Below are positions 7,391 through 28,650 of a stretch of 28,650 nt of DNA, piece after piece. The notes under the pieces were generated by a model. It saw nothing but the letters and a program-made list of their open reading frames with translations. It had not been told where the DNA came from and did no database searches. Numbering within the stretch: the stretch's first letter is position 1; each line of letters starts with the position of its first letter. This DNA is from a virus. Both the position numbers and the translations under genes were made by a program. The DNA is taken from IMG/VR virus record IMGVR_UViG_3300042479_000866, positions 1 to 28,650 of that record; one strand, written 5' to 3'.

Positions 7391-10300
7391 ATGTCAAACC
7401 ATAAAAACTTAATATTTTTCAACAAAGAAGGAGATTACTTAAATTTTAATTATAATAACACAAGCGATAGATTTGAGGGCGATATTCTATTCCATGAAAA
7501 CTCATCAGATACATATAAAACTGTAGGTCTTTATATGTTGGAAAAAGTTCCATCATTTGAATTTGAATTAGAAGGAGAATTATCATTAAACAAATTCCAA
7601 TTATTCAACGAATATGGGTTTGATTTCTATTCGGCTAAATATGCTACACAATCGGTAACAAAAATAGAACCTATAAATAACGACCCTAACTTTTATTCTA
7701 AATGGATATATGGTATTGACTTTGAATCTAAATTTCCAATAGGAACTATAATTAAATTTAATAATCAATTTACTGAATTTGTTGATTTAAACCAAACTTA
7801 TACTGTTGTATCAACAAAAAAAGGAGCTATAATGATAATAAGCTCTGTTGATAATGCTACTTTTGAATCTACTTACTACTCTTCTTACACTAGTACAACC
7901 TCATATATAAATTTAACTATATCAGGTGTAAACGCTATAGGTATCTATAATTATATAGATTCAAACTATGTAGATAACCTATCAAATTGGAACGAGTCTA
8001 CTTTCTATGATAAATTATATAATAACAAAAAGTTAAATATAGTAAACACATCTCTAAATGACGGAGTTGTTACTGTATTAAATGATAATATATCAGACAC
8101 AGTTCACTTCGAATACTATACATCAATATCAGATTTACAGACTAATCAAAATTTAATAATTGAGGTTTCAACAAAAACTGATTTACCTAAAATATACGAG
8201 GGTAGTATAAACGCAACATCTAGTAAACTAGAGTTTGGATTTGGCATACCTGAAATTTTGAAACCAGGTAGAGAATTTAAAATAGTAGGATCCACATTAA
8301 ATCAGAACTTTTTGTCTGTTTCTAACATTCCATCATTTACAGGAAATACACAACAAACATTTTATGCTACACAATCACAAGTTATGTGGAATAATAAAAT
8401 ATATGAGTGCATTCAAGCTTATACTCAAAGTTTTTCAGGAACTACTCAATTTTTAAATCCGGACAATGTATTATACTGGACAAGTAACATAACACACATA
8501 ACAGTTGACCAAACAATATCTGCTGAATTTTTATCAACTTGTCAAGTTTATTTAACAGTTGATAAAGTTTACTTTGATTATGGATGGACACAAAGTAATT
8601 CTGTAACATTATCGTCAGCTGCTGAAAAATATAAAGATGATTTAAAGTCATTTAATATAGACCTTTATTATAATAGTAATAAGTTAAAAGCTGATTTAAT
8701 ATATCCTAGTAAATATGTTGAGGTAAATTTTTATCATACACAAATTGGAACTACTCATTCAATTGGACACGTTTTACAAACAAGTGAAAGAATGATTGGA
8801 GTTAAAGAACAACTAAATAATGAATTAAACTATGATATATCTTCTAATTTCTTATACAATATAGTTTTTACTGACTTAGATGAGTATGGATTAAAAATCA
8901 CTATTAATAAACAGGTTTATGAAGAAGAAATAAATTGGGTATACAGTGGTACTGCTCCTGACATGGAAAGAACTATTGATAGAACTTTGAGGTCATGGAT
9001 TTCTAGAAACTATTTAAGATTGTTATCACTTGGTATAATAGCTGAGTTACAATATACCGGATCATTTACATCAGTATTTTATAATTCAATAAAAATAACT
9101 ACACAATATCCAAATATACCAATTATATTAAATAGTGTAAATGTTGGTATAACTGCAGACTATCACATAGAACATTCTAAAGTTTTATTCTCAGATTTGG
9201 GACCATATATTTCAATTAATATAAATGGAGATTTATATGATCAATCAACAATATACTTAACTGGATCATATTCTCAATATCCAGATATTCCGGCTACTTT
9301 ACAAGCTTGGGTGACTGAACACTATGAAGATTTAATAGAATATGGAACAATAGTATCAAGTATTAATAATTTACTTAAATTTGATGTAAAAAGAGTTGAT
9401 AGAAGATTAGACTACACTATAAAAACTGGTAAATTATCAATACCTGGTTTATTAGATTACATACTAACTAATAAATTAAAAGGAAGTCCTGGATGTTTAA
9501 TAACATCAAATGAAGCTACTTTACCAAAAGGTTCTAGTTTTTCTTTTGAGGAAGAAGGATTTTCTACCGGCATGGCTATCTCAATAAATAACACTTTTTA
9601 CCCTTATAATAACCAAGAGTATAATGTGCAATTTTTAGATCCTACTGCTATTAATCTAAGTTACCAAGGTCCTTTTTGGGGATTAAATGATAATATTTGT
9701 AACACATCAGCATTTGTCACATTGGCTTTCAATGGGGGATTTGGACAAACAGCTTGTGATCCAATAATTGGACCAACAGGAATAGGTCTAACAGGAGGAG
9801 GTCCATTTAATACACTTCAATTTAGCTCAGCATTTAGTTTACAATACAATCCAAACAATTATTTTACAACTACTTATAATTTATCATCTTATCCGGGATC
9901 TAATGGATTAGTAGATATAATTTATATACAATTATCAAACTCTATTTATTCATTTGGAGATAACTTGACAGTAATGGACTCTACACTAGGACATTACTTA
10001 GCAACAGTTACGCTTCCAGGAAACACACAAAGTTTACAAATGGAGTTTAATCCGGTAAATAACTATTTATATTGTTTATCAAAAAATAAAATATTTGTTG
10101 TAGATCCACAACTAAACACATTAGTAACATCTATGACATTCTCTAATACGGCTTACGACTTAGAGATAAATACCAATAATGGCGATGTTTATGTGACTTA
10201 TGAAAATAGTCCAAATATATCTATATACAACTATAGTAATACTTTAGCAACAACTCTTGGAACATACTCAACCAACTTCCCACCATCAACAACATCTTGT

Positions 10301-13219
10301 GGAAAAATGGTATTTAACTCATTTGAAGGTGATATGTATATCACAACAGATGCGAGTCAAGTGCTAAGAGTTAATGGAAGTACTCCACCACTAGGTAACC
10401 CTAATAGAACAATACAAACAACATACGCAATACCCGGAGCAACGAATTCAATATTCTACGAACCGGTAAATGAGGCTGTTTATGTATATGGATCAGCATC
10501 TCTTTGGAAAATTGATAATGGAGTAACATATAGTTTGGCGATAACAACTAATTCTTTTGATGATATGATATTTAACAATCTAACCGGTGAAATGAACTTA
10601 TCAGATTCATCAACATCTTTCAGGTCTATTGACTTAAACACAGGTAACATTTCTGTGAACTCAGGAGTTTCTAATTATGGTTATTTAGCTTTGAATCAAT
10701 TTGATGGTGATGTTTATTTATCATCACTATCAATGAATAACGTAGTAGTAATTAGAGCTGCTAGTGGAGCTGTTGTTCACACAGAACCAATGATATCACA
10801 AACAACAAAAATAATATACAACCCAGATAGAAAATCTGTATTTGCTATACAACCATCATTAAATTCTGTTATTGAAATAGGAGTTAATATAAATGCTACT
10901 ATTAATATAAACACAAATAACAATAGTGAGATTGGTGAAAATTTATATGGAACATTAGATCCTAATTATGTTCCACACCCAGGTCTTTGGTTAAAAGCAA
11001 AAGAGTATGTTAGAAAACCAAGAGAAAACTTTGAAGGCGAGACACAGGTTAGTTATTATTGGAGATGGTTTGAAGATACAAATCCCGAATTCTTTATATA
11101 TGATTTTTCAGGAACACAGCTTACTACAAGTGGATCATATTCATATCTTGGTGAAAAACCACTAAGTACAATTGTTCTTAATAAGAAACCTAATAAAGAT
11201 CTTAATAAAATTTATTCACCTGAATACCAACAAACGGTATTTGATAGAGTTGAATATCCTCTTAATTATATAGATGATTCAAATGATATAACAATTGAGG
11301 CTGAGTCTTTAGAATTATTTTTAGGATATAAATCAACAGAGGAAGGATCATCTAAATCAACTTTACAACTTTATAAAAAGGAAGATGTTTCTGTAATATA
11401 TGAATCTACTCCAATAAATGATACTATTTTATCTTTTGAAACTTTAGACGCTAATGGACCAGATAAAAGAGGTCAGATAAAAATAAACTCATCATCAAGT
11501 GAGACATTTTTAGGAAAAGGATTCAAAGAAGGTCAACGATTAGTAATATATGTAAAAGACGTAACTAATATAAAATCTCAATATATATCATATAATAATG
11601 GAGTTTTTGTAAAAATAAGAAGTGTTTTCTTTAAAACTATTATTGTCGATTTCTATGAACCAACCGTAGATTTCTTAGAAACCGAATTAACTGTTATATC
11701 AAACTACCCAACCACAGGATTAACAACATATTGTAAAACAACTTTAACTGTTTTAGATAGAGAAATAGGAAGATTCTTAACATATGGACAAACAGAAATT
11801 GAAGATATTAGATTCAAAACTGAACTTGGTAACTTAGGTAAACTTATTACAGAAAATGAGGTATTCATATTCAAAGATTATGATATATTAGAAGGAGGTG
11901 TAGACTGGCCATACTTAAATATGAAAAGAAAAGAGATGTTAATGATGAAACATCTTATATATCCTTATATAGGGTCTTATAAATCTATAATAAATGCTAT
12001 AAATTTCTTTGGATATAATGACTTACAATTAAATGAGTATTATAAAGATATTAATCCATCTTCTGAAAAGTTCTTAAAGCTATTTAAAGTAGAAATACCT
12101 GATATATTTGATAATACAGTAGAAGGATGGACAGAAAGTGAATTCATAATGAATAACTTCCCTAATGATAACTACGAAGAAACTAATATGTTTAATCTAA
12201 CATATAAAATAACCGACACAGAAGGAAACAAGGTAATAAACTACTCAATAGATGAGATTGTAATTAAATTACAAGGTCTAAAATATTGGTTAAAGAAAAA
12301 TATTATTCCACTAACACATAAAATACTAGATATAACCGGAAGATCATATTTCAAAGCTCAAAATGAAATATCTCACACATCTTATGATGTTAGATTTATA
12401 AATAATAGTCAGAATATGACTCCAATAACATTAAAATTGAATGAGGCTTACTTAATGCCTATCAATAGCGGATCTACTGTTTATAATTGTGTTGTTGACT
12501 TTTATACTATATTAGATGGAGTTGGAGCTGATAAAAATCCAACTGGATTAACACGACCACCAAAACCATTTAATGGAGTTTTGATTGAGTTACCAGACTA
12601 TTTTAACATTTTAGTTAGAACATATAAGACATATAAAGAATGGGTTCCTTTTACCACATATAGTATAGGTGATAAAATTACTTATTACGGAAAGTTATAT
12701 GAATCAGTGACAGATAATAATAAGATAAACAATCCTAGAAAATATGAAAATGTAAATCTTTGGTTATCAGGATCAACATACTTAGTAACTAATCTTGTTG
12801 AATATGACAGAGATGTATTTGTTTATAGTGGTATATCTTCTGGAACAGTTTCTGCAACATCATCAATACCTCCTGTTTTAGATCCAGGAAATTGGTTAAA
12901 AACAAATGATTGGAGAGAAATAGATTATGAACCTGTTCAAACTATAAATGAATTTAGAAGTGTTCCTAAAGCTCAATCATTTTCTAATATCATAGGAGTT
13001 CAAAATTTAACACAGACAAATCCAATATTACCATTTAACTTTACAATAGATTCAAATATTGATCCTTTTGTGGTAATTGAAGTCACATCGGATAATGGAT
13101 ATGGACTAATCTATAGAGATAGGAAAAACTATGAAATAAGAGGTCTAAAAGATTTAAGAGACACATATACTTATATAGATCCTATTGGACCATTCCAACC
13201 AATAACACCAATTTATTAA
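7391..13219 (+). CDS. Giant tail/baseplate structural protein with seven-bladed beta-propeller
   Basis: A 1942-residue protein, the largest gene here. I recall similar very large structural proteins in Bacteroidota myoviruses, but do not know their exact position in the virion. Residues ~490-560 and ~595-660 are two copies of one module (FTDLDEYGLKITINKQVY... against LFSDLGPYISININGDLYD..., both ending in a W-x-x-x-Y-x-x-L-x-x-x-G helix). Residues ~850-1165 hold seven blades of a YncE/NHL-type propeller (FNPVNNYLYCLSKNKIFVVD and six like it). Residues ~1470-1660 form a helical block (KRKEMLMMKHLIYPYIGSYK, INFFGYNDLQLNEYY) typical of tail wedge or connector proteins. At ~1745-1780, WVPFTTYSIGDKITYYGKLY resembles carbohydrate-binding modules of the CBM5/12 type; a weaker copy (MWNNKIYECIQAY) is at ~332-345. 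The gene is alone between a divergent promoter region and a terminator. Confidence 0.7.
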   Translation: MSNHKNLIFFNKEGDYLNFNYNNTSDRFEGDILFHENSSDTYKTVGLYMLEKVPSFEFELEGELSLNKFQLFNEYGFDFYSAKYATQSVTKIEPINNDPNFYSKWIYGIDFESKFPIGTIIKFNNQFTEFVDLNQTYTVVSTKKGAIMIISSVDNATFESTYYSSYTSTTSYINLTISGVNAIGIYNYIDSNYVDNLSNWNESTFYDKLYNNKKLNIVNTSLNDGVVTVLNDNISDTVHFEYYTSISDLQTNQNLIIEVSTKTDLPKIYEGSINATSSKLEFGFGIPEILKPGREFKIVGSTLNQNFLSVSNIPSFTGNTQQTFYATQSQVMWNNKIYECIQAYTQSFSGTTQFLNPDNVLYWTSNITHITVDQTISAEFLSTCQVYLTVDKVYFDYGWTQSNSVTLSSAAEKYKDDLKSFNIDLYYNSNKLKADLIYPSKYVEVNFYHTQIGTTHSIGHVLQTSERMIGVKEQLNNELNYDISSNFLYNIVFTDLDEYGLKITINKQVYEEEINWVYSGTAPDMERTIDRTLRSWISRNYLRLLSLGIIAELQYTGSFTSVFYNSIKITTQYPNIPIILNSVNVGITADYHIEHSKVLFSDLGPYISININGDLYDQSTIYLTGSYSQYPDIPATLQAWVTEHYEDLIEYGTIVSSINNLLKFDVKRVDRRLDYTIKTGKLSIPGLLDYILTNKLKGSPGCLITSNEATLPKGSSFSFEEEGFSTGMAISINNTFYPYNNQEYNVQFLDPTAINLSYQGPFWGLNDNICNTSAFVTLAFNGGFGQTACDPIIGPTGIGLTGGGPFNTLQFSSAFSLQYNPNNYFTTTYNLSSYPGSNGLVDIIYIQLSNSIYSFGDNLTVMDSTLGHYLATVTLPGNTQSLQMEFNPVNNYLYCLSKNKIFVVDPQLNTLVTSMTFSNTAYDLEINTNNGDVYVTYENSPNISIYNYSNTLATTLGTYSTNFPPSTTSCGKMVFNSFEGDMYITTDASQVLRVNGSTPPLGNPNRTIQTTYAIPGATNSIFYEPVNEAVYVYGSASLWKIDNGVTYSLAITTNSFDDMIFNNLTGEMNLSDSSTSFRSIDLNTGNISVNSGVSNYGYLALNQFDGDVYLSSLSMNNVVVIRAASGAVVHTEPMISQTTKIIYNPDRKSVFAIQPSLNSVIEIGVNINATININTNNNSEIGENLYGTLDPNYVPHPGLWLKAKEYVRKPRENFEGETQVSYYWRWFEDTNPEFFIYDFSGTQLTTSGSYSYLGEKPLSTIVLNKKPNKDLNKIYSPEYQQTVFDRVEYPLNYIDDSNDITIEAESLELFLGYKSTEEGSSKSTLQLYKKEDVSVIYESTPINDTILSFETLDANGPDKRGQIKINSSSSETFLGKGFKEGQRLVIYVKDVTNIKSQYISYNNGVFVKIRSVFFKTIIVDFYEPTVDFLETELTVISNYPTTGLTTYCKTTLTVLDREIGRFLTYGQTEIEDIRFKTELGNLGKLITENEVFIFKDYDILEGGVDWPYLNMKRKEMLMMKHLIYPYIGSYKSIINAINFFGYNDLQLNEYYKDINPSSEKFLKLFKVEIPDIFDNTVEGWTESEFIMNNFPNDNYEETNMFNLTYKITDTEGNKVINYSIDEIVIKLQGLKYWLKKNIIPLTHKILDITGRSYFKAQNEISHTSYDVRFINNSQNMTPITLKLNEAYLMPINSGSTVYNCVVDFYTILDGVGADKNPTGLTRPPKPFNGVLIELPDYFNILVRTYKTYKEWVPFTTYSIGDKITYYGKLYESVTDNNKINNPRKYENVNLWLSGSTYLVTNLVEYDRDVFVYSGISSGTVSATSSIPPVLDPGNWLKTNDWREIDYEPVQTINEFRSVPKAQSFSNIIGVQNLTQTNPILPFNFTIDSNIDPFVVIEVTSDNGYGLIYRDRKNYEIRGLKDLRDTYTYIDPIGPFQPITPIY

Positions 13220-14908: not shown

Positions 14909-17900
14909 TTATTTTTCTTTATCTTTTCCAATAGTATCGGATCCGGTTTCGGTCTGTTTAGATTTTAAGTAGTTATCAAGTGTTTTTTCAAAACCACTAA
15001 CACTTTCCATACTAGATAACAAGGCTATTACTTTATCCAATTTCTGAAGTTGTGTTTCTCCTTTAGAATCTCTTGCTGGTCCATCATTACCACCAATTTT
15101 ATTAGTTTGTATAGCACCACCGCCACCTGGTGCCTTAACTCCTTTTTTACCAATACCCTCGGCCTTAGCTTGATCCTTTAGTAGATTAGCAAATACACCA
15201 GATCTACTTTCCAAGACTTTTAACATGTTACTAAACATGTTAGAATCCATAGCTGATAATAAAGCTAAGTTACCTGTTAAAGACCTAAACATATTAACTT
15301 TACCACCATCTAAACTATTTAGAGCTCCTGAGAATCCTTTTATAGCTGAAGCTAATCTATCATAAGCAGAAGCGATTTTAACCATACCTTTAGCAGCTTT
15401 AGATATTGGATCATTTCCAAAAAAGTCATCTATGATACTACTATCTTTATCAACAAGTGCTAAGTTCTTAGCCAATAAAGCATAGTCCATAACATTTGAC
15501 GCAACACTCTTCATATAATCCGGATTTATATTGAAAGAAAACAATTTTTTGTTGTGATATAAAATACCAGCACTTAAAACCATTTGGCTAAGAATTTTAT
15601 TAACCGTAGAAACGTCTTTCATTTGTCTTTTGGTTGTAGTTGTAGTAGTTGTAGACAAAAATCCAGAAGAAATTGTTTTTTTAACATCCTGTCCTAATAG
15701 TTTATCAAGTTGGTTTACTAACACAGCATATCCAATAACACTACCCATTAGATTTTTAACCCAACCACTATCTAATTTGAATCCAAAAAACTTTTTATTA
15801 TTAAATAGAAGTCTAGCAGCATCAACAATCTGACTAATAATTCTAGTAACAATAGAAACATCTTTCATTTTTCTAACAGTTGTAGTTGTAGTTGAAGAAC
15901 CAAATCCTAAAAAACCACCAGATTTAATTGAAAGTTTCTCATCATATCCTAAAATTTTATCAAGTTCTTTCGCCAAAGTAGCAAAAGGCATTACATTAGA
16001 ACTTAAACTTTTAACCCATCCACTATCTAATTTAAATCCAAAATATTTTTTAGAGTTAAACAATATTCTAGCGGCTCCAGCAATCTGACCAATGACCATA
16101 CTAACTTTTAAGCTATCAAGAACTGAAAGATTTTCGACTAATTTAACAATACTCATAAATGACCTAACAGATGCGTTAACTCCCGCGGCCCAAGTAGTTG
16201 TAGGATAAGCACCCCAAGCATCTGGTTTAAGACCGGCGAAAGCTTTAGCTGAATTGACTATGGCTCTAGAAATATGAGAAACTGCTCTAACCATTCCGTC
16301 AACAACATCATCACCACTTGTAAACCAACCACTATCTTCACTCATAGATTTGAAAACAGGAGCGAAAGCATTTAATGCGGCACCAACACCTTCACCCCAT
16401 TTCTTAGATGGATAATTTCCTTCTGTGTTAAATAATTTAGATATTTCAGGATCTGCGAAGAATTTAGCGGCATCAACTATACCACTTGATATAGTCATAA
16501 TTGCTTTTGACATATCTTCAACAGTAGGACCTCCACTAGAAAATAAACCAGGAGCACTATCTTGTAAAACTTTGAAAACAGGAGCAAACGCACCAATAGC
16601 AGTACCTATACCCTCTGCCCAAGCCTTACTAGGACCAGCCACAAACGCAGATGTATTATTAGCAAAGAATCCAGCAGCGGTCACGATACCTTCGGAAACA
16701 GTTACTATAGCAGCTGCAAAATCAGCAGGACTAACACCACCACCTCCAAAAAGTTTCATTATACCACTTTTCATCATCATACCATAGATAGGAGAGAAAG
16801 CCCCTAATGATATAGCAATACCCTCAGCCCAATCTTTAGTAGGACCACCAGTATATTTACCACCTTGAAGTATTATAGAAGCATCAACAATAGATTGTGC
16901 AACTAAACTAACCGCAGCTGCTCCTGCTTTTAATGCTATCCAACCAAATCCTAATGTACCAACTATAAATGAACCAAGAGTTAAAACGGCTAGTCCAAAT
17001 CCTGTCATAACAAGACCGGTACTTAATGTCCACCATAAAGGAGGACCACCAGTATATTTACCACCTGATAATATCTCAGAGGTTTTTACAATAGTTTTAG
17101 CAATTGATAGAATAGCCACAAGACCAGCCACAATAGCAATAGCACCAATACCCGTAATAGATATCATACCTAAAGCAAGAGCAGCCAGACCAAATGGTAA
17201 CATAACAGCTGTCGCTCCAAGTGCCCACAAAACAGGAGGAAACTTGTCATATTTACCTGTATTTAATATATGAGATGTTGCAGTAACGGTTGCGGCAACA
17301 GCTAAAATCATACCACATCCAGCAAGAATGGCTAAAGCACCAAATCCAGACATAGCAATAGTTCCTAAAACAACAGCAGCTAGACCAAAAGCAACTAAAG
17401 ACATACCTACACCAAGTGACCACTTCCAATCTGGGTATTTCTTATAATCACCATAATTTAATATCTTAGATGCGGCGATTACAGTAGCTGCTATTATAAG
17501 AATGGATATACCACCTTTTATGTAATCCATCACAGTACCAAGTAAATTAACAATCTTCATTGCGATGGCAAAAACTACTATAGAGATTGCAGCAAGAATA
17601 CTAAATATGAGTAATTTCAACATAGTCATAAATGTTATACCATTGATATAGGCAGATGCTTTAAATATTATAAATGCAGTCGCTGCAATTGCTAGAGCAA
17701 GTAGTGTAAACAAAGCCGGAACTTTAATAACATCACCCCATTGAAGTTTACCCATCATCTTCATAGCAAAGGCAACAATAACAAGTACTATACCCATAGT
17801 AACACCCAATATAATAACCTTTAACATCATCATAAATGATATCTCACCAAAGTAAGGAGCGGCTTTTGCAAATATAAATGCCGATGCGGCGATAGCTCCA

Positions 17901-18994
17901 GCAAGTAAAGTAAAGAATACCGGTAATTTAGCAACATCCTTCCACTGCATTCTACCAAGAGCCTTAACTATTTTTTCTATACCAAATGATAAAACAACAA
18001 ATAAAGCGGCTATTAAAATAGCCGTTATTGCTTGAGCAAATCCAATTGGTTTAACTAATTGTAAAACATAAGAAGAAGCGGCGATAGCGGCAGCCATAAC
18101 AGGTAACATAAGAGGTATTAGTAAAGCCATCTTTACTGGATTCTTAATCTTATCAAGAGCCTTAACTATTTTTGGTAAACCAAATGCTAACACACTGAAC
18201 ATACCGGCTATTAATATACCAGTAACAGCCTGACCTAATCCAATTGGTTTTATCAAAGACAAGGCCCAAGACGCCATTGCTATACCTAAAGCTAAAGCAG
18301 GTAACATAACAACTGCCAAAAAGGCCATTTTCACAGGATTCTTAACCTTCTCCAAGGCCTTAACTATCTTTGGTAAACCAAATGCCAACACAGTAAATAA
18401 ACCTGCTATTAATATACCAGTTATTGCTTGTGTAATTCCTATTGGTCTAATCATTCCCAAAGCCCAAGATGATAACATCACAGCAATAGACATCATAACC
18501 ATAGCCAATGAGGCAATAGCGGCTTGTTTGAGAGTCATATTAATTTTAGCAACCTTCTCAAACGCAACCGCAATAATAACAATAGCAAGTCCTAACCCAA
18601 CAACTGATAAAAAGTCTATTTTACCAACTAGTTTGAAAGCCATACCAATCGCTAAAACGGCAACGGCTATTAAGATAATTGTACCAACACCCTTTTTTAT
18701 ACTACTCTCTTTTTTCTTATCAGTACCCGCTTCTTCCATTGGTGTTTTTTTATCAACCGCTTTCTTCTTAGAAAGCTCTAGAATAGCATTTTGACTTTTA
18801 AGTATTTTTTCAGTATCTGCCTTAATAGACTTTATACCAACACTTATTTGCTTTATATCTTTAGAAAAATCACCACTTTCTAAGGCAGCACCAGTCGCAC
18901 TCTTAGTTTGTTTCTTTTTAAGAATGTCTGCAATACTCTCAAGAGCAACTGATAAATTATTCAGTGAATCTAATAGACGCTTATCCATATCCAT
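14909..18994 (-). CDS. Tape measure-like tail protein built of hydrophobic tandem repeats
   Basis: A 1361-residue protein, probably the tail tape measure that sets tail length and helps DNA cross the inner membrane. Residues 1-80 are helical and charged, with coiled-coil character. Residues ~103-720 are a long series of hydrophobic helices: three 66-residue repeats (prolines at 184, 250 and 316 in [IV][RK]PIG), then further helix pairs. Residues ~520-960 hold at least seven looser repeats with a GKYTGGP...W..G motif. Residues ~960-1185 hold three ~84-residue repeats (GFKLDSGWVK...LDKILG...TTTTT...MKDVS). The C-terminus is charged. At about 0.15 nm per residue, a helical ruler of this length would give a tail near 200 nm. 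T4 gp29 is less than half as long. ATGs at 18994 and 18988 are both possible starts. Confidence 0.72.
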   Translation of the reverse strand: MDMDKRLLDSLNNLSVALESIADILKKKQTKSATGAALESGDFSKDIKQISVGIKSIKADTEKILKSQNAILELSKKKAVDKKTPMEEAGTDKKKESSIKKGVGTIILIAVAVLAIGMAFKLVGKIDFLSVVGLGLAIVIIAVAFEKVAKINMTLKQAAIASLAMVMMSIAVMLSSWALGMIRPIGITQAITGILIAGLFTVLAFGLPKIVKALEKVKNPVKMAFLAVVMLPALALGIAMASWALSLIKPIGLGQAVTGILIAGMFSVLAFGLPKIVKALDKIKNPVKMALLIPLMLPVMAAAIAASSYVLQLVKPIGFAQAITAILIAALFVVLSFGIEKIVKALGRMQWKDVAKLPVFFTLLAGAIAASAFIFAKAAPYFGEISFMMMLKVIILGVTMGIVLVIVAFAMKMMGKLQWGDVIKVPALFTLLALAIAATAFIIFKASAYINGITFMTMLKLLIFSILAAISIVVFAIAMKIVNLLGTVMDYIKGGISILIIAATVIAASKILNYGDYKKYPDWKWSLGVGMSLVAFGLAAVVLGTIAMSGFGALAILAGCGMILAVAATVTATSHILNTGKYDKFPPVLWALGATAVMLPFGLAALALGMISITGIGAIAIVAGLVAILSIAKTIVKTSEILSGGKYTGGPPLWWTLSTGLVMTGFGLAVLTLGSFIVGTLGFGWIALKAGAAAVSLVAQSIVDASIILQGGKYTGGPTKDWAEGIAISLGAFSPIYGMMMKSGIMKLFGGGGVSPADFAAAIVTVSEGIVTAAGFFANNTSAFVAGPSKAWAEGIGTAIGAFAPVFKVLQDSAPGLFSSGGPTVEDMSKAIMTISSGIVDAAKFFADPEISKLFNTEGNYPSKKWGEGVGAALNAFAPVFKSMSEDSGWFTSGDDVVDGMVRAVSHISRAIVNSAKAFAGLKPDAWGAYPTTTWAAGVNASVRSFMSIVKLVENLSVLDSLKVSMVIGQIAGAARILFNSKKYFGFKLDSGWVKSLSSNVMPFATLAKELDKILGYDEKLSIKSGGFLGFGSSTTTTTVRKMKDVSIVTRIISQIVDAARLLFNNKKFFGFKLDSGWVKNLMGSVIGYAVLVNQLDKLLGQDVKKTISSGFLSTTTTTTTKRQMKDVSTVNKILSQMVLSAGILYHNKKLFSFNINPDYMKSVASNVMDYALLAKNLALVDKDSSIIDDFFGNDPISKAAKGMVKIASAYDRLASAIKGFSGALNSLDGGKVNMFRSLTGNLALLSAMDSNMFSNMLKVLESRSGVFANLLKDQAKAEGIGKKGVKAPGGGGAIQTNKIGGNDGPARDSKGETQLQKLDKVIALLSSMESVSGFEKTLDNYLKSKQTETGSDTIGKDKEK
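15450..16110 (-). repeat. Three ~84-residue tandem repeats in the tape measure C-terminal part
   Basis: The units begin near GFKLDSGW (about residue 983), GFKLDSGW (1069) and SFNINPDY (1151). The first two have poly-threonine runs (SSTTTTTV and STTTTTTTK) before MKDVS. The third is more diverged. Confidence 0.75.
17948..18541 (-). repeat. Three 66-residue (198-base) hydrophobic repeats in the tape measure
   Basis: The motif [IV][RK]PIG...QA[IV]T.ILIA..F recurs with prolines at residues 184, 250 and 316, exactly 66 residues apart. Each unit ends in FGLPKIVKAL or a close variant. The exact spacing suggests tandem duplication without later indels. Confidence 0.85.
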
Positions 18995-22084: not shown

Positions 22085-24268
22085 ATGCAAAGTAAATTAA
22101 AGATATTATTCCTCGCTCCACATTTATCAACAGGAGGAATGCCAGCTTTTCTTCTAAAAAGAATTGAAAATATAATAAAACACGAAGAATTAGAACTGTT
22201 TGTAGTAGAATATACAAACTTCAGTGATGAATATGTAGTTCAGAAAAACAAAATTAAAGAACTAATCAAACCTGAGAACTTTTTTACTTTAGGTGAAGAT
22301 AAGTATAGTTTAATGGAGATTATTAAAAGTAATAACATTGATATAGTTCACTCTGATGAGATTTTAGAAGGATTTGGTCAAGTAGTACCAGATTCACTAT
22401 TAAATGATTTATATAGTAATAGTAGAACTTGGAAGATAGTTGAAACTTGTCATAATGTTTGGTTTAATCCAAATACATCTAAGAGATTCAATCCAGATGG
22501 TTATGCTTTTTGTACACCTTGGCACAAAATGTCTACTTTCTCTCAAATGCCTTCATATGGTGAAGTGATAGAACATCCTATTGAAAATAAAGTACCTAGT
22601 TTAGAAGAGAAATCACAGGCTAAAGAAATTCTAGGGCTTGATTCAAACAAAAAACACATTATAAATGTAGGATTGTGGACATCTGGTAAAAACCAAAAAG
22701 AAGGTGTTGAATTAGCAAAACAATTAGAACAATCTAATCCAGAAATTCAGTTTCACTTTATAGGAAATCAAGCAATGAATTTTGAAGAATATTGGGGTCC
22801 TATAATGAGTGATATACCATCAAATGTTACTGTTTGGGGTGAAAGACATGATACAGATTTATTTATGAGAGCTGCTGATGTGTTTATGTTTAATTCAACT
22901 TGGGAATGCAATCCATTAGTTGTAAGAGAAGCTATATCACACGGTCTTAAAATAATATCAAGAAACTTACCACAATATATGGATATGTTTACTCCATATA
23001 TCACACAAATTAATGATGATATAGTTACTACTAAAAATAAACTTCTTTCACTATTAGACTCAGAGTCAACATATCAAGTTATGGATGGTTCTTCTGAGTT
23101 TGAAAATAAATATGTTAACTTTTACAAAAGCGTTAAAAGTCTTCCTATTACAAGTCAAACTAAATTTATACCAAAACCAGAGATAATACAATATTTTGTT
23201 AATAATCCATTTTTAGAAATAAAAGGAGAAAGTAATAGTAAGTTCAAAGTTGAATTTTATGATGAATTGGGCAAATGCCACTACTCTGAAGAATTATCTT
23301 CAAATCATTGGATAAGATTAAATAGACAATACTTTACTAAGTGGAATACAAAAATATGGGAAAGTGGAAAGCTTATATATGATAACACTTTAGATTTAAA
23401 AGGTAAAAAAGTATACATATCTTTAGAAAGTAGTTCATTAGGTGATACTTTAGCTTGGGTTCCTTATATCAGAGAGTTCAAAGATAAACACAAGTGTCAT
23501 TTAGTTGTTTCTACATTTATGAATAATTTATTTAGAGATACTTATCCTGATATTGAATTTGTAGAACCAGGAACAGCAGTATCTGGGTTATATGCAATGT
23601 ATAAATTAGGTTGGTTTTACAAAGATGGTGAATTTGATTTAGCTAGAAATCCAAATGATTTCAGAGTAACACCTTTGCAAAAAACGGCTTCTGATATTTT
23701 AGGACTTGAGTATAAAGAAACAAGAGCTTTACTTAAATTTCCAAATGGTAAAAGAGAAAAAAAGGTTGGTATTGGAATACATTCAACTGCTCAAGCAAAA
23801 TATTGGAACAACCCAACTGGTTGGCAAGAAGTTGTTGATTATCTAAAATCAAAAGGATATGATGTTGTTTTATATTCAAGAGAAAATGATGGATATATGG
23901 GTAATAATCATCCAATAGGAATAAGAAAGTTTGAAAGTGATGGTACAATAGAATCTGTTATAAACGATATGGCTACTTGTGAGTTCTTTGTTGGTTTAGG
24001 ATCAGGTTTAAGTTGGTTATCGTGGTCAATTGGATTACCAACAGTTTTAATATCTGGATTTAGTCAAGAGTATAGTGAAACAGTAACAGATACTTATAGA
24101 GTTATAAATAAAAGTGTTTGTCACGGATGTTTTAACTCACATAGATTAGACAGTGGTGATTGGAATTGGTGTCCAATATATAAAAATACTGAAAGACAAT
24201 TTGAATGTACTAAAGAAATAACTTCTCAAATGGTTATTGAAAAAATAAATGAATTTATAAATGGATAA
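22085..24268 (+). CDS. GT4 glycosyltransferase fused to TibC/Aah-type O-heptosyltransferase
   Basis: A 727-residue two-domain enzyme. Residues ~5-330 are a GT-B, GT4-type domain: GG turn at 17-18, nucleotide-sugar region GLWTSGKNQKEG (~196-207) and the E-x7-E motif at E274/E282 in TWECNPLVVREAISHG. Residues ~440-727 match the bacterial autotransporter heptosyltransferase (BAHT) family: ESSSLGDTLAWVPY (~448-461), IGIHSTAQAKYWNNPTGW (~563-580), GSGLSWLSWSIGLPTVLISG (~639-658) and the hallmark four-cysteine iron site C679, C682, C696 and C708 (HGCF..., GDWNWCP..., RQFEC). TibC-type enzymes attach ADP-activated heptose to serines of repeat-rich autotransporters. The GT4 half would extend the sugar or use a second donor. 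It overlaps the cupin gene by eight bases and is first in a three-gene operon. Heptose as the donor here is inferred. Confidence 0.82.
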   Translation: MQSKLKILFLAPHLSTGGMPAFLLKRIENIIKHEELELFVVEYTNFSDEYVVQKNKIKELIKPENFFTLGEDKYSLMEIIKSNNIDIVHSDEILEGFGQVVPDSLLNDLYSNSRTWKIVETCHNVWFNPNTSKRFNPDGYAFCTPWHKMSTFSQMPSYGEVIEHPIENKVPSLEEKSQAKEILGLDSNKKHIINVGLWTSGKNQKEGVELAKQLEQSNPEIQFHFIGNQAMNFEEYWGPIMSDIPSNVTVWGERHDTDLFMRAADVFMFNSTWECNPLVVREAISHGLKIISRNLPQYMDMFTPYITQINDDIVTTKNKLLSLLDSESTYQVMDGSSEFENKYVNFYKSVKSLPITSQTKFIPKPEIIQYFVNNPFLEIKGESNSKFKVEFYDELGKCHYSEELSSNHWIRLNRQYFTKWNTKIWESGKLIYDNTLDLKGKKVYISLESSSLGDTLAWVPYIREFKDKHKCHLVVSTFMNNLFRDTYPDIEFVEPGTAVSGLYAMYKLGWFYKDGEFDLARNPNDFRVTPLQKTASDILGLEYKETRALLKFPNGKREKKVGIGIHSTAQAKYWNNPTGWQEVVDYLKSKGYDVVLYSRENDGYMGNNHPIGIRKFESDGTIESVINDMATCEFFVGLGSGLSWLSWSIGLPTVLISGFSQEYSETVTDTYRVINKSVCHGCFNSHRLDSGDWNWCPIYKNTERQFECTKEITSQMVIEKINEFING

Positions 24269-24647
24269 ACCTATTGTTATAAACGCTCTTCACACAGAAG
24301 GATGTTGTGTCCCAAAAGGATGGGGTAAAGAAATTATTATTGAAAATAATGAACTTTATTGTGGTAAATTACTTTGCTTTGATAAAGGTGCTAAATTTTC
24401 AATGCACTATCATATGATTAAAGATGAAACTTGGTATGTTGATAAAGGTGAATTCTTATATCGTTGGATAGATACTGAAACAGCAGATGTTATAGAACAA
24501 AAATTAATTGAAGGTGATACTGTAAGACAAAGACCTGGTCAACCACATCAATTAGAAGCTTTAACAGATGGTGTTATCTTTGAAGTATCAACTACTCACT
24601 CAGATTCTGACTCATATAGAGTTTGGAAAGGTGATTCTCAAAAATAA
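24261..24647 (+). CDS. Cupin protein linked to the heptose operon
   Basis: A 128-residue single-domain cupin. The metal site is complete: H49 and H51 (SMHYHMIKDET) with E56, and H96 (RPGQPHQLEA). The opening PKGWGKEIIIENN and the closing EVSTTHSDSDSYRVWKGD are typical of sugar-cluster cupins that resemble mannose-6-phosphate isomerase C-terminal domains. I recall such cupins next to heptose kinase or sugar nucleotidyltransferase genes in bacterial polysaccharide loci. Its reaction is unknown; isomerisation or epimerisation of a sugar phosphate, or a regulatory role, are possible. It overlaps the glycosyltransferase by eight bases and is followed eight bases later by the kinase, so the three genes are one translational unit. 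Confidence 0.75.
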   Translation: MDKPIVINALHTEGCCVPKGWGKEIIIENNELYCGKLLCFDKGAKFSMHYHMIKDETWYVDKGEFLYRWIDTETADVIEQKLIEGDTVRQRPGQPHQLEALTDGVIFEVSTTHSDSDSYRVWKGDSQK

Positions 24648-24655
24648 AAGTAAAT

Positions 24656-25396
24656 ATGTTTAAGATTTTAGTAATAGGAGAAAAGTGTATAGATAGATTT
24701 ATGTATTGTGATGTTTCTAGATTTAGTCCAGAAGCACCGGTACCTGTTTTAAATCCAATCGAAATTGTTGAAAATGATGGAATGGCTGGTAATGTTGTTA
24801 GAAATATTATTGCTATGAAAAGTGATAGTTTAGTAACTCATTGGTATCAAGATGAGATTATAACTAAAACTAGATTTGTTGAAAAGAAAAGTAATCATAT
24901 GTTTCTTAGATTAGATGAAGGTGAATCAAATATATCTAAAGTAGAATTAATTGAAGAAAGAGTGGAAGAATTAGGTAATTTTAATATTGTTATTGTAAGT
25001 GATTATGATAAAGGATTTATGACTAATGATGACTTATTAACAATAGGTAGAAACTCAAAGATGTCTATATTAGATTCTAAGAGGAAATTAAGTAAGGAAA
25101 TTGTAAGTAGTTTTACTTTTGTAAAATTGAATGAAAAAGAGTCTTTACAGAATTCTGATTTATTAGGGTGTAAAAATATATTAGTTACTTTAGGAAGTAA
25201 GGGAACTAAATTTAATGATGAGGTTTATCCTAGTCCAAATCCACAAGAAACTATAGATGTTAGTGGAGCTGGTGATACATTTACATCAGGATTTATTCTA
25301 AAGTATTTAGAAACTGGTGATATTAAAACTTCTATTATTTATGCTAATGAAATGGCTTCAATAGTTGTTTCAAAAAGAGGAGTGGCGGTGCCTTAA
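24656..25396 (+). CDS. HldE (RfaE)-like heptose 7-phosphate kinase, shortened
   Basis: A 246-residue PfkB/ribokinase-family enzyme most like the kinase domain of HldE, which phosphorylates D-glycero-beta-D-manno-heptose 7-phosphate at C1. Diagnostic features are DVSRFSPEAPVPVL (residues 19-32), the GMAGNVVRN segment (42-50), IVSDYDKG (113-120), VKLNEKES (156-163), and the anion hole with the catalytic Asp D207 (DVSGAGDTF). It is shorter than the usual ~320-residue domain: about 25 residues are missing after the first helix (SDSLVTHWYQDEIITKTRF), where HldE has part of the substrate lid. The C-terminal adenylyltransferase domain of full HldE is absent, so a host or separate phage enzyme must make the nucleotide sugar. 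The active-site Asp is intact, so the enzyme may still work. Confidence 0.78.
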   Translation: MFKILVIGEKCIDRFMYCDVSRFSPEAPVPVLNPIEIVENDGMAGNVVRNIIAMKSDSLVTHWYQDEIITKTRFVEKKSNHMFLRLDEGESNISKVELIEERVEELGNFNIVIVSDYDKGFMTNDDLLTIGRNSKMSILDSKRKLSKEIVSSFTFVKLNEKESLQNSDLLGCKNILVTLGSKGTKFNDEVYPSPNPQETIDVSGAGDTFTSGFILKYLETGDIKTSIIYANEMASIVVSKRGVAVP

Positions 25397-25430
25397 TTCC
25401 AATTAACACAATGTTAATTATAAGACAAAT

Positions 25431-26174
25431 TTAAGTCATTATGACTTCGATCCCCAAACATCTCCAATAATCGACCGTAATGGTATTCTCTACAAAAGAA
25501 GGAAACCCGGAATTTAAACCTCCTATGTCAACGCTATTTTGATATATCAAATCACCAGTGTGAAAATCAGTAATCTGAATTTGAGCTCTAAAGCTCCCAC
25601 GAAGATTGTTAGAAGGATCATACTCAACAGTCCAAGTAAGATCCCAATTCGTATTAATTTGAGGCGTTGAATACTCGGAAGGAACGCCTCCGGCACCTGC
25701 TATATTACCTTGTAAATTTTGATACACACCAAGTGAATAAAAATAACCTTGAGATACACCACTCAAATTACAAATTATACCAAAATTTGGAATTGTTAAT
25801 TTAAAACTATAAAATTGAGTTGGAAAAGTACCGTTTACAACATTTAATTTAAGTCTTTGGTCTTTTGTCCAATGTGCATAATCATGAAAATAATCTATAT
25901 TAAACTGACCAGTGGTTAGCCAGTTATTAAAAAAAATCTCACCAGCAGGATCATTTCTATTAATAACATATTCATTCGCATAAGGACCATTAGCAACTCC
26001 ATAATATGGCTCAGGTGATGAAATTGCAACAAATTGATCAGGTGACATAACATCCGGCACCGCACCAGGAACATTAGTAAAAACTGATAGTAGTGACTTT
26101 GTGACGTTACTAACAATTGTTCCATTTCCATACACAATCTGACCGGTTGATTGAATAGATAATCCTACCGCCAT
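25431..26174 (-). CDS. Tail-fibre-associated protein of unknown fold
   Basis: A 247-residue protein encoded directly after the S74 fibre gene; its ATG overlaps the fibre stop (TAATG), so translation is coupled. It is beta-rich with many aromatics (FKLTIPNFGIICNLSG, WDLTWTVEYDPSN, FRAQIQITDFHTGDLIYQ). The N-terminus (MAVGLSIQSTGQIVYGNGTIV) resembles the start of phage fibre and head-decoration proteins. No signal peptide or transmembrane helix is seen. Likely a fibre tip, adhesin or fibre chaperone, inferred from context; alternatively a decoration protein. Its 3' end lies 34 bases from the convergent sugar operon, with only a weak A/T hairpin (25401-25419) between them. Confidence 0.55.
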   Translation of the reverse strand: MAVGLSIQSTGQIVYGNGTIVSNVTKSLLSVFTNVPGAVPDVMSPDQFVAISSPEPYYGVANGPYANEYVINRNDPAGEIFFNNWLTTGQFNIDYFHDYAHWTKDQRLKLNVVNGTFPTQFYSFKLTIPNFGIICNLSGVSQGYFYSLGVYQNLQGNIAGAGGVPSEYSTPQINTNWDLTWTVEYDPSNNLRGSFRAQIQITDFHTGDLIYQNSVDIGGLNSGFPSFVENTITVDYWRCLGIEVIMT

Positions 26175-28650
26175 TATAGATTATTATTTTTTATTTGTCT
26201 TTTCAACTCATCTATTTGAACTTGTTGTTCTTTAATAGCTTCAATTAACACAGATACAATGTTTGGATAAGCTACTGCTTTTGTACCATCTGTATTTTCA
26301 AATACAACCTCTGGGAAAGCTTGTTGCATTTCTTGTGCAATAACACCAGCATAAACTCTTTCTTTGTCTTCTTCATCATTTCTAGTAAATGTAACACCTC
26401 TCATATTATTAACTTTATCAAGGGCATTTTCAATTGTTTTAACATTATCCTTTACAGATTCATCAGAAAAGGCTATAATATTACCAGTTGCGTATATATC
26501 ACCTGTTACTTCTAAAGTATAAGGACCTAGAGCACCAGGAACACCACCTATAGCAACACGACCACCTAAACCAGCAAGGTCATCTTGAATAGCACCTGTA
26601 GTTATTGTTGTAGATGAGTCCCAAACTGCAACATAGTTAATAGTACCACCAGTTAAACCACCACCAGCTGGAGACGTACCGGATGTACCAGCAGATCCAC
26701 TTGTGCCTGAAGATCCTGAAGATCCTGAAGAACCACTTGATCCTGAAAGACCGGATGTACCGGATGCTCCACTAACACCACTTGTACCCGATGATCCTGA
26801 TGATCCTGAACCAGATACACCTGAGGATCCACTTGATCCTGAAGAGCCACTTGATCCTGAAGAGCCACTTGATCCTGAAGAGCCACTTGATCCTGACTTA
26901 CCTGATGTACCACTTGTACCCGATGTTCCGGAAGATCCTGATTTACCATCAGCAACCCAAGATATAGTATAAGTACGACTTGATGATATAGAACCGTTTT
27001 GAGCTATATAATTTCCAAGATCATAAATATAGTAGGTACTAACAGATGTTGCTGTTGATATTGGCCATATACCAAGAATACTTGTATTACCAACTTCGTG
27101 TAATTGTAGATAAACTGCTCTACCAGAATTAATAATGGTAGTAACAGCCGCGTGCCAAGCACCATAAGCAACGGATGTACTTGATGTATTATCTATCCAA
27201 AGTTTAGTTATACTACTTATAAGACTATTATCAGACGAGAACTGACCACTACCACCACCTGGAGGTGTTCCAACAGTACTCATACATGTCCATCTACCAC
27301 TATTAGAAGAGTCAGTACCAGAAGCTCCACTTGACCCAGAAGATCCTGATGATCCACTTGATCCTGATGATCCACTTGAACCGGAAGATCCAGAAGATCC
27401 ACTTGAACCGGAAGATCCTGACTTACCTGATGTGCCACTTGTTCCTGATGTACCACTTGACCCTGAAGATCCAGAAGATCCACTTGATCCTGATGATCCA
27501 GAAGATCCTGATAAACCGCTTGTTCCTGAAGATCCTGATGATCCACTTGACCCTGATGATCCAGAAGATCCACTTGATCCTGATGACCCAGAAGATCCTG
27601 ATAAACCACTTGTTCCTGAAGATCCTGATGACCCACTTGTTCCTGAAGATCCTGATGATCCACTTGACCCTGATGATCCAGAAGATCCACTTGATCCAGA
27701 TGACCCAGAAGATCCTGACTTACCCGATGTACCACTTGTGCCACTAGATCCTGATGATCCACTAGATCCTGATGATCCACTAGATCCTGATGATCCTGAT
27801 AAACCACTTGTGCCTGACGATCCAGAAGATCCACTTGATCCTGATGATCCTGAACTTCCACTAGATCCACTTGATCCTGATGATCCTGATAAACCACTTG
27901 TGCCTGATGATCCTGATGATCCACTTGACCCACTTGACCCAGAAGATCCACTTGACCCTGAAGATCCACTCGATCCTGACTTACCTGATGTACCACTTGT
28001 ACCACTTGTACCACTTGTGCCTGATGATCCTGAACTTCCACTAGATCCACTTGAACCGGAAGATCCACTTGATCCTGATGATCCAGAAGATCCCGATAAA
28101 CCACTTGTACCTGAAGATCCACTTGATCCAGAAGACCCACTTGATCCTGATAAACCACTTGATCCAGATGATCCAGAAGAACCACTTGATCCTGATAATC
28201 CAGAAGATCCACTTGATCCAGAAGATCCTGATGATCCAGAAGAACCACTCGATCCAGAAGATCCTGATAAACCACTTGTACCTGAAGATCCAGAAGATCC
28301 ACTCGATCCAGAAGATCCTGATAAACCACTTGTACCACTCGATCCTGATGATCCACTCGATCCAGAAGAGCCACTCGATCCAGAAGAGCCACTAGATCCA
28401 CTTGACCCAGAAGATCCTGAAGATCCACTTGATCCTGACTTACCTGATGTACCACTTGTACCTGATGTACCACTTGTTCCTGATGATCCACTCGATCCAG
28501 AAGAACCACTTGATCCTGATGATCCTGAAGATCCACTTGAGCCTGATAAACCACTTGTTCCTGATGATCCTGATGATCCACTTGATCCAGAAGAGCCACT
28601 TGAACCACTTGATCCAGAAGATCCTGAACTTCCACTCGATCCCGAGGAAC
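26174..28650 (-). CDS. Long Gly-X-Ser tail fibre with peptidase S74 chaperone end (5' end outside window)
   Basis: The frame of the S74 fibre is open from base 28650 to the stop at 26174 without interruption, so at least 824 residues are encoded; the ATG at 27283 is internal. Order, from the N-terminal side in the window: about 148 consecutive Gly-X-Ser triplets (X = Ser, Thr, Leu, Lys), a ~110-residue globular domain (MSTVGTPPGG...YTISWVADG), a second Gly-X-Ser block of ~92 residues, a short beta region (TINYVAVWDSSTTI), and a C-terminal intramolecular chaperone (peptidase S74). The chaperone has the Ser-Lys pair five residues apart in FSDESVKDN, as in endosialidase-type self-cleaving domains, then GVIAQEMQQAFPEVV and a C-terminal coiled coil. 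It folds as a trimer and the last ~97 residues are probably released. Gly every third residue without Pro resembles non-hydroxylated collagen-like stalks. Confidence 0.85.
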   Translation of the reverse strand, partial: SSGSSGSSGSSGSSGSSGSSGSSGSSGSSGTSGLSGSSGSSGSSGSSGSSGSSGSSGTSGTSGTSGTSGKSGSSGSSGSSGSSGSSGSSGSSGSSGSSGSSGSSGTSGLSGSSGSSGSSGSSGTSGLSGSSGSSGSSGSSGSSGSSGSSGLSGSSGSSGSSGSSGLSGSSGSSGSSGSSGTSGLSGSSGSSGSSGSSGSSGSSGSSGSSGTSGTSGTSGTSGKSGSSGSSGSSGSSGSSGSSGSSGSSGTSGLSGSSGSSGSSGSSGSSGSSGSSGSSGTSGLSGSSGSSGSSGSSGSSGSSGTSGTSGKSGSSGSSGSSGSSGSSGSSGSSGSSGTSGSSGSSGTSGLSGSSGSSGSSGSSGSSGSSGSSGSSGTSGLSGSSGSSGSSGSSGSSGSSGTSGTSGTSGKSGSSGSSGSSGSSGSSGSSGSSGSSGSSGSSGASGTDSSNSGRWTCMSTVGTPPGGGSGQFSSDNSLISSITKLWIDNTSSTSVAYGAWHAAVTTIINSGRAVYLQLHEVGNTSILGIWPISTATSVSTYYIYDLGNYIAQNGSISSSRTYTISWVADGKSGSSGTSGTSGTSGKSGSSGSSGSSGSSGSSGSSGSSGSSGVSGSGSSGSSGTSGVSGASGTSGLSGSSGSSGSSGSSGTSGSAGTSGTSPAGGGLTGGTINYVAVWDSSTTITTGAIQDDLAGLGGRVAIGGVPGALGPYTLEVTGDIYATGNIIAFSDESVKDNVKTIENALDKVNNMRGVTFTRNDEEDKERVYAGVIAQEMQQAFPEVVFENTDGTKAVAYPNIVSVLIEAIKEQQVQIDELKRQIKNNNL
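26672..26947 (-). repeat. Second Gly-X-Ser block in the fibre
   Basis: About 92 residues of GSS/GTS/GKS/GVS/GAS triplets, with one two-residue slip (SGSGSS). Codons GGA/GGT and TCA/TCT/AGT are mixed, so the DNA repeat is imperfect. Confidence 0.9.
27317..28650 (-). repeat. Long uninterrupted Gly-X-Ser block running off the window
   Basis: About 148 triplets, every third residue Gly and every Y position Ser; X is mostly Ser, with Thr, Leu and Lys in recurring higher-order groups (GLSGTSG, GKSGTSGTSG). GGA-TCN junctions create a GATC at four to five positions per 60 bases, roughly a hundred in all. Confidence 0.92.

Follow-up and report, generated by a model that had tools for sequence, protein, structure and literature searches.

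The known substrates of TibC-type glycosyltransferases are beta-helical autotransporters, not collagen-like stalks. TibC and Aah belong to the BAHT family (TIGR04414), and the functional residues of TibC (PDB 4RAP and 4RB4) comprise the catalytic Asp110, the phosphate- and sugar-contacting Thr226, Lys230 and Trp305, the adenine-contacting Arg286 and the cysteines of an iron finger (PMC4358343). For the sugar kinase considered below, the closest described system is HldE (RfaE), whose domains I and II serve ADP-heptose synthesis.

Collagen triple helices are normally stabilised by proline. Collagen-like tail fibres have been described for E. coli prophages (the EPclPs), with Pro-rich stalks that are unglycosylated as recombinant proteins (PMC3368898). 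For the cuticle collagen of the vent worm Riftia, sugars on threonine are reported to stabilise a proline-poor triple helix (Mann et al. 1996, as cited in PMC6953826), and in the model work titled 'Sweet is stable' a sugar stabilises the triple helix (Bann et al. 2000, as cited in PMC3368898).

We analysed a 28,650-base IMG/VR fragment of a large myovirus, referred to here as the window. In many large environmental phages, a TibC-like enzyme is paired with an adjoining fibre whose Gly-Ser/Thr stalk is nearly free of proline. Comparison of phages with bacteria suggests that the enzyme puts a sugar on this stalk. We consider it likely that the TibC-like operon of the window is an O-glycosylation system acting on the phage's own tail fibre, and it is probably a widespread one in which a known enzyme family has a new substrate class. 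A preliminary description of this DNA knew of no phage fibre heptosylation; the open-access literature, to which our search extended, likewise gave no description of it or of a phage TibC-like enzyme.

Organisation of the locus

The features of the locus are collected in Table 1. The tail sheath of the window is 78-80% identical to those of the metagenomic phages LR745206 (635 kb) and LR756502 (642 kb). The same phage is represented by a second contig, IMGVR_UViG_3300042892_003210, which is 99.9% identical across the shared part. The preliminary description had named a TibC-like enzyme, a cupin, a kinase and a repeat fibre on the opposite strand, and all are present where it placed them. It had put the fibre directly beside the operon; the two are neighbours, but a 247-aa ORF sits between the kinase and fibre genes. 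This ORF gave no family match in profile searches, and its homologues stand directly after a Gly-X-Ser fibre in loci L077-L081. Two very long ORFs, at 7391-13219 (1,942 aa) and 14909-18994 (1,361 aa), have no PHROG match, and the second ranges from about 1,000 to 1,360 aa across relatives.

Table 1. Features of the locus, with positions in the window.
Feature	Position	Strand	Basis
GT4 + TibC-like (BAHT) bifunctional glycosyltransferase, 727 aa	22085..24268	+	TIGR04414, PF00534, TibC match, model
GT4 domain, residues 1-365; presumed to extend the glycan or to act as a second glycosyltransferase	22085..23179	+	PF00534, phrog_2170
TibC-like O-glycosyltransferase domain, residues 385-723	23237..24253	+	TIGR04414, kept catalytic residues
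Putative iron-finger segment, C679/C682/C696/C708	24119..24208	+	aligned to TibC Cys339/342/358/370
Cupin, 128 aa; possible sugar-phosphate isomerase	24261..24647	+	PF07883 28.8 bits, phrog_7851
Shortened HldE-N-like heptose-7-phosphate kinase, 246 aa	24656..25396	+	TIGR02198, phrog_8133
247-aa ORF 3' of fibre, probable fibre partner or tip	25431..26174	-	homologues follow Gly-X-Ser fibres
Collagen-like tail fibre, C-terminal 824 aa	26174..28650	-	open frame off window end; PF13884, PF01391, tail-fibre PHROGs
S74 intramolecular chaperone of fibre	26303..26467	-	PF13884
Second, shorter Gly-X-Ser array (limits approximate)	26699..26947	-	repeat runs
Gly-X-Ser array, proposed acceptor (limits approximate; continues past window)	27320..28650	-	repeat runs, complete fibre

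A fusion of GT4 and TibC-like domains

The enzyme matches TIGR04414 with 302.8 bits (cut-off 200) across residues 385-723 and PF00534 with 53.6 bits across residues 178-308. Among solved structures, TibC is its sole match in a phmmer search (4rap/4rb4, E 1.6e-62). An AlphaFold2 model of the monomer has a mean pLDDT of 79, and a Foldseek search of the PDB with this model places TibC first (E 3e-28, TMt 0.80), followed by the GT4 enzymes MshA and BshA. The predicted structure has the GT-B fold and N-terminal beta-barrel of TibC; residues 680-695 of the iron finger are modelled at low confidence (pLDDT below 50). The preliminary description was thus right about the TibC/Aah-type part and its four-cysteine site, which aligns with that of TibC, and had left the GT4 domain unmentioned. 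In several relatives, GT4 is a separate neighbouring gene.

The functional residues of TibC are kept, with one exception. D454 corresponds to Asp110, T568 and K572 to Thr226 and Lys230, and W644 to Trp305, and all of these are present in 58/58 phage domains. The four cysteines are invariant among 14 aligned relatives and kept in 58/58 phage domains, which is a statement of sequence conservation, the iron site being putative. The exception is Arg286. Its place is taken by V625 in the window enzyme and by V, L, T or I in every one of the 58 sampled IMG/VR phage domains, against Arg in 70/79 bacterial domains. Residue 300, the stereoselectivity site, is mostly Gly in phage domains, and the tip of the beta-hairpin reads Y-M rather than F-V. 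Loss of Arg286 does not strictly mark the acceptor, a reading that we considered and rejected: the enzyme of phage LR756501 (735 kb, with more than 1,200 repeat matches) keeps the Arg and is accompanied by a Ser/Thr stalk, and that of LR756504 (636 kb) has neither the Arg nor a stalk.

The phage enzymes share with TibC and Aah a family score above cut-off, a predicted fold, the catalytic Asp, the Thr, Lys and Trp contacts and the four-cysteine finger. They differ in being phage-encoded, in their fusion to GT4 (and often to an FkbM methyltransferase) and in the lost Arg286. The partners also differ: no autotransporter strand-loop-strand substrate lies near the enzyme, and its neighbour is a collagen-like Gly-X-Ser/Thr stalk in place of an autotransporter beta-helix. 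By sequence and fold the window enzyme is a member of TIGR04414, but the family label 'autotransporter heptosyltransferase' should not transfer to it. Triple fusions of GT4, TibC-like and FkbM methyltransferase domains, 950-1,200 aa long, occur at L014, L019, L042 and other enzyme loci; these suggest a methylated glycan in other phages. A role in DNA glycosylation was set aside because the enzyme family modifies proteins.

The fibre and its Gly-X-Ser stalk

The fibre gene runs off the end of the window. Its C-terminus matches the S74 chaperone family PF13884 (58.5-62.6 bits), and its Gly-X-Y periodicity gives 40.8 bits against PF01391 (cut-off 27.2). The portion inside the window holds 176 Gly-x-Ser triplets, a count that replaces the earlier figure of about 148. 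The complete ORF, of 2,941 aa, is found on the second contig (L223:11519-20344) and ends in the S74 chaperone. It has 1,499 Ser, 193 Thr and 15 Pro, with 818 Gly-x-Ser/Thr triplets in runs, a number that assembly may have affected. The repeat is far beyond chance, since none of 80 loci anchored on the tail sheath of related phages holds a run of at least five triplets; such runs occur at 36 of the best 80 of 233 enzyme loci and at none of 71 ordinary bacterial TIGR04414 loci.

With the EPclPs the fibre shares a Gly-X-Y stalk and, presumably, the trimeric form of a phage fibre. The EPclP stalks are rich in proline, whereas stalks of the window's type are nearly free of it, and Ser and Thr fill 50-97% of their X and Y positions. 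The strand opposite the Ser repeat (26703-26972 and 27432-28649, +) is also open, and its Asp-Pro-rich translation (PEDPLDPDD...) is likely to mislead annotation.

The cupin and kinase genes

The cupin and the HldE-like kinase that had been described in the operon are both present, the kinase in shortened form, and each gene overlaps or closely follows the one upstream. The metal ligands of the cupin (H49, H51, E56 and H96) are intact and invariant. It matches sugar isomerase cupins weakly, and a sequence search of solved structures gave nothing useful on its function. The kinase scores 126.4 bits on TIGR02198 (HldE domain I), below the cut-off of 345. It keeps the HldE motifs RxSPEAPVPV, TKTR and GAGD, but a stretch of the domain after the first of them is missing. 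Its cyanophage homologues, 32-42% identical, belong to the same short kinase family. Phage HldE-like kinases (phrog_8133) have a common deletion relative to cellular HldE and form a minimal sugar kinase family that is frequent in cyanophages.

Neither the window nor the matching 42-kb contig contains a match to HldE-C (TIGR02199). In close relatives (L164, L166 and L191-L193) a gene of 131-135 aa lies between cupin and kinase, and the copy in L224 is HldE-C-like (TIGR02199, 90.3 bits, below the cut-off of 181.5). Marine cyanophages carry the same set of cupin, kinase and nucleotidyltransferase together with a phosphoheptose isomerase; we therefore take it for a sugar module in its own right, which the window's lineage has placed beside the glycosyltransferase. 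That the kinase and cupin are indispensable to the system is ruled out, as they also occur without a TibC-like enzyme, in cyanophages and on other contigs, and are absent near most phage TibC-like genes. Operon copies that do pair the enzyme with cupin and kinase are all accompanied by a Ser-rich stalk, wherever the contig extends as far as the fibre gene.

Enzyme and stalk occur together in phages

We examined the association of enzyme and stalk in three samples. The first was drawn from the best 80 of 233 loci, which hold 51 distinct TibC-like genes of phages. For 37 of these genes, a Gly-X-Y stalk rich in Ser/Thr and free of proline lies within 10 kb (median distance 1.5 kb), mostly on the opposite strand, and for 31/51 the nearest such ORF is within 3 kb. 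In these stalks, Ser and Thr together account for 0.50-0.96 of X and Y positions, and proline is close to 0. Many of the other loci in this sample are cut short by the edge of the contig.

The second sample consisted of 49 contigs, selected through the conserved neighbouring gene orf248 and scanned with a repeat pattern in which WSN stood for Ser/Thr, so that AGY serine codons were counted. Of the contigs with the enzyme, 20/26 have Gly-X-Ser/Thr arrays; of those lacking it, 4/23 do (p=4e-5). For contigs of at least 100 kb the figures are 12/15 and 0/8 (p=0.0003), and after removal of near-copies they are 10/13 and 3/15 (p=0.007); these statistics correct only in part for relatedness, and the records are largely fragments. 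For the third sample, two separate scans of IMG/VR looked for the patterns G-[ST]-[ST] x6 and Gly-Pro-X x6. Among the matches listed on contigs of at least 40 kb, a few of which are not true stalks, TIGR04414 is present on 16/33 contigs with the G[ST][ST] repeat and on 0/22 with the Pro-rich repeat (p=4.5e-5). About half of the repeat-bearing contigs among the matches listed have no detected enzyme, and many of them are fragments.

Named phages extend this picture. In the cultured Microcystis phage Mel-JY01 (PP395634.1, 190 kb), the enzyme, annotated only as an FkbM methyltransferase, lies 1.7 kb from an ORF with a Gly-Ser/Thr repeat. That ORF (L331:1-3049, +) is found where the record has a minus-strand hypothetical protein, WWT39287.1, the strand apparently being mis-annotated. 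Both enzyme and repeat are missing from the complete huge phages LR745206, LR756502 and LR756500. Enzymes without a Ser-repeat, which the preliminary description had counted against its own proposal, do exist but are rare. Two apparent cases, G058 and G082, carry interrupted GTSGTSG-type or Ser/Thr-rich collagen-like stalks that fall outside the strict pattern. G011/G013 (one phage, on a 175-kb contig) is a true exception, and a search of the whole 175 kb found no other Ser/Thr repeat; LR756504 is another.

A bacterial parallel

A scan of bacterial genomes found chromosomal relatives of the phage enzymes in Methylobacter, Methylomicrobium, other Methylococcaceae and a Polaromonas MAG (L251-L257). 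Like the phage enzymes, they lack Arg286. In 6/7 of these loci the enzyme adjoins a GTSGTSG-type repeat protein, small and mostly secreted, a neighbour found for 0/71 ordinary bacterial members of the family; in L256 the pair lies at 9785-11044 and 11154-11855. In a maximum-likelihood tree, for which a redundant, near-identical second Methylobacter copy was dropped, all sequences without Arg286 form one clade (98/87), with the methanotroph group (100/100) nested inside the phage radiation. Of the named phages, the enzyme of Mel-JY01 was placed in a second tree. Taken together, these data suggest that the enzyme-repeat pair has moved between phages and bacteria, in either direction. The same clade thus accompanies the same type of repeat in a quite different kind of genome, and phage host-recognition islands therefore hardly explain the pairing. 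The loci L251-L257 may represent a bacterial system for a glycosylated repeat protein.

Discussion

The family and fold of the enzyme, its catalytic residues, the repeat and the association of the two are supported by sequence. The preliminary description had guessed, as its central point, that the Ser-repeat stalk of the phage itself is the enzyme's substrate, and this is favoured by the independent co-occurrence tests and by the bacterial sister group. The acceptor, the sugar, the order of addition and the physical role of the glycosylation are inferred. During infection and before virion assembly, the TibC-like domain would transfer a sugar in the cytoplasm to Ser and Thr of the Gly-X-Ser/Thr stalk. 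The donor would most likely be ADP-heptose, with heptose transferred, or a close relative of it. The fused GT4 domain would probably add a second sugar, and in the window's lineage the cupin and HldE-like kinase may raise the supply of donor.

The identity of the sugar is less certain than the stalk as substrate, and the earlier proposal of heptosylation stands only in part. In close relatives, the enzyme has homologues of HldE-N and HldE-C, both ADP-heptose genes, next to it. The donor is possibly not ADP-heptose, however, because Arg286, which TibC needs, has been lost; heptose genes are absent from the vicinity of most other phage enzymes, and kinase and cupin are found in enzyme-free phages, cyanophages included. 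We regard it as rather unlikely, though possible, that the stalk is the substrate and the sugar is something other than heptose, the loss of Arg286 and the fusions to GT4 and FkbM reflecting another nucleotide-sugar donor. Such a donor would agree with the replacement of R286 in 58/58 sampled IMG/VR phage domains, the Gly usual at residue 300, the FkbM domains of other phage enzymes and the rarity of heptose genes near the enzyme. It accords less well with the HldE-N and HldE-C homologues that directly adjoin the enzyme in the window's lineage and with the retained T226, K230 and W305, which contact the sugar and phosphate. It shares its acceptor with our preferred explanation, and the confidence in the two overlaps.

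A different acceptor, the host surface, seems improbable to us. The enzyme would then glycosylate LPS, O-chain or a surface protein, blocking superinfection or changing a receptor, and its proximity to the fibre would reflect a hypervariable host-recognition region. Such regions, in which enzyme and fibre both lie, gather glycosyltransferases anyway, and those of T4-like phages are usually read as changing LPS (PMC7029224). Heptose is itself an LPS sugar, and in G013 and LR756504 the enzyme occurs with no repeat. Against this stand, among the matches listed, the tight link to one type of repeat and the lack of any link to Pro-rich stalks, and further the bacterial sister enzymes that adjoin GTSG proteins of their own, and a family that modifies proteins, whose residues for protein transfer and ring assembly in TibC (catalytic Asp and iron finger) are kept. 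It is very improbable that the enzyme modifies another structural protein of the phage (the 247-aa partner, capsid or tail tube) and that the stalk is incidental: glycosyltransferase genes of phages have led to the suggestion of glycosylated capsids (PMC11256854) and the enzyme adjoins the sheath gene in L069-L075, but the repeat is the only feature that phage and methanotroph partners have in common. We give equally little credence to the association as a by-product of lineage and of two features common in large freshwater phages, for although dereplication weakens the test (p=0.007) and many records are fragments, the pattern-based IMG/VR sampling (among the matches listed), the bacterial parallel and the three complete huge phages lacking both features speak against it.

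Returning to glycosylation of the stalk, the sugars may stabilise, stiffen and protect a proline-poor stalk, as glycosylated threonine does in the vent-worm cuticle collagen. They may take this stabilising role because the stalk has almost no proline, a view that applies sugar stabilisation of the triple helix to the phage stalk by analogy. In the Riftia and 'Sweet is stable' work, as presented in the papers that cite it, sugars on Gly-X-Y repeats are likewise proposed to replace proline or hydroxyproline. The Riftia collagen, as described there, is made in an animal secretory pathway, whereas here a phage fibre would be modified by a cytoplasmic TibC-like enzyme, both known from sequence. Protection from proteases and tuning of adsorption are candidate roles that are equally conjectural. 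More tentatively, and with somewhat more doubt than belief, we propose a distinct and widespread TibC-like clade dedicated to proline-free collagen-like repeats, in which the giant stalks of many large phages would be 'glyco-collagens' with sugars in place of proline and hydroxyproline, and methanotrophs would use the same pair for a secreted protein.

If fibre glycosylation of this kind is correct, phages would carry their own protein O-glycosylation machinery for their adsorption organelles. Glycosyltransferases in phage host-recognition regions, now usually read as modifying LPS or DNA, would be open to reinterpretation, and the stability of proline-free collagen-like stalks thousands of residues long would be explained. 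The TibC family would gain a new class of substrate, in phages and in methanotrophs.
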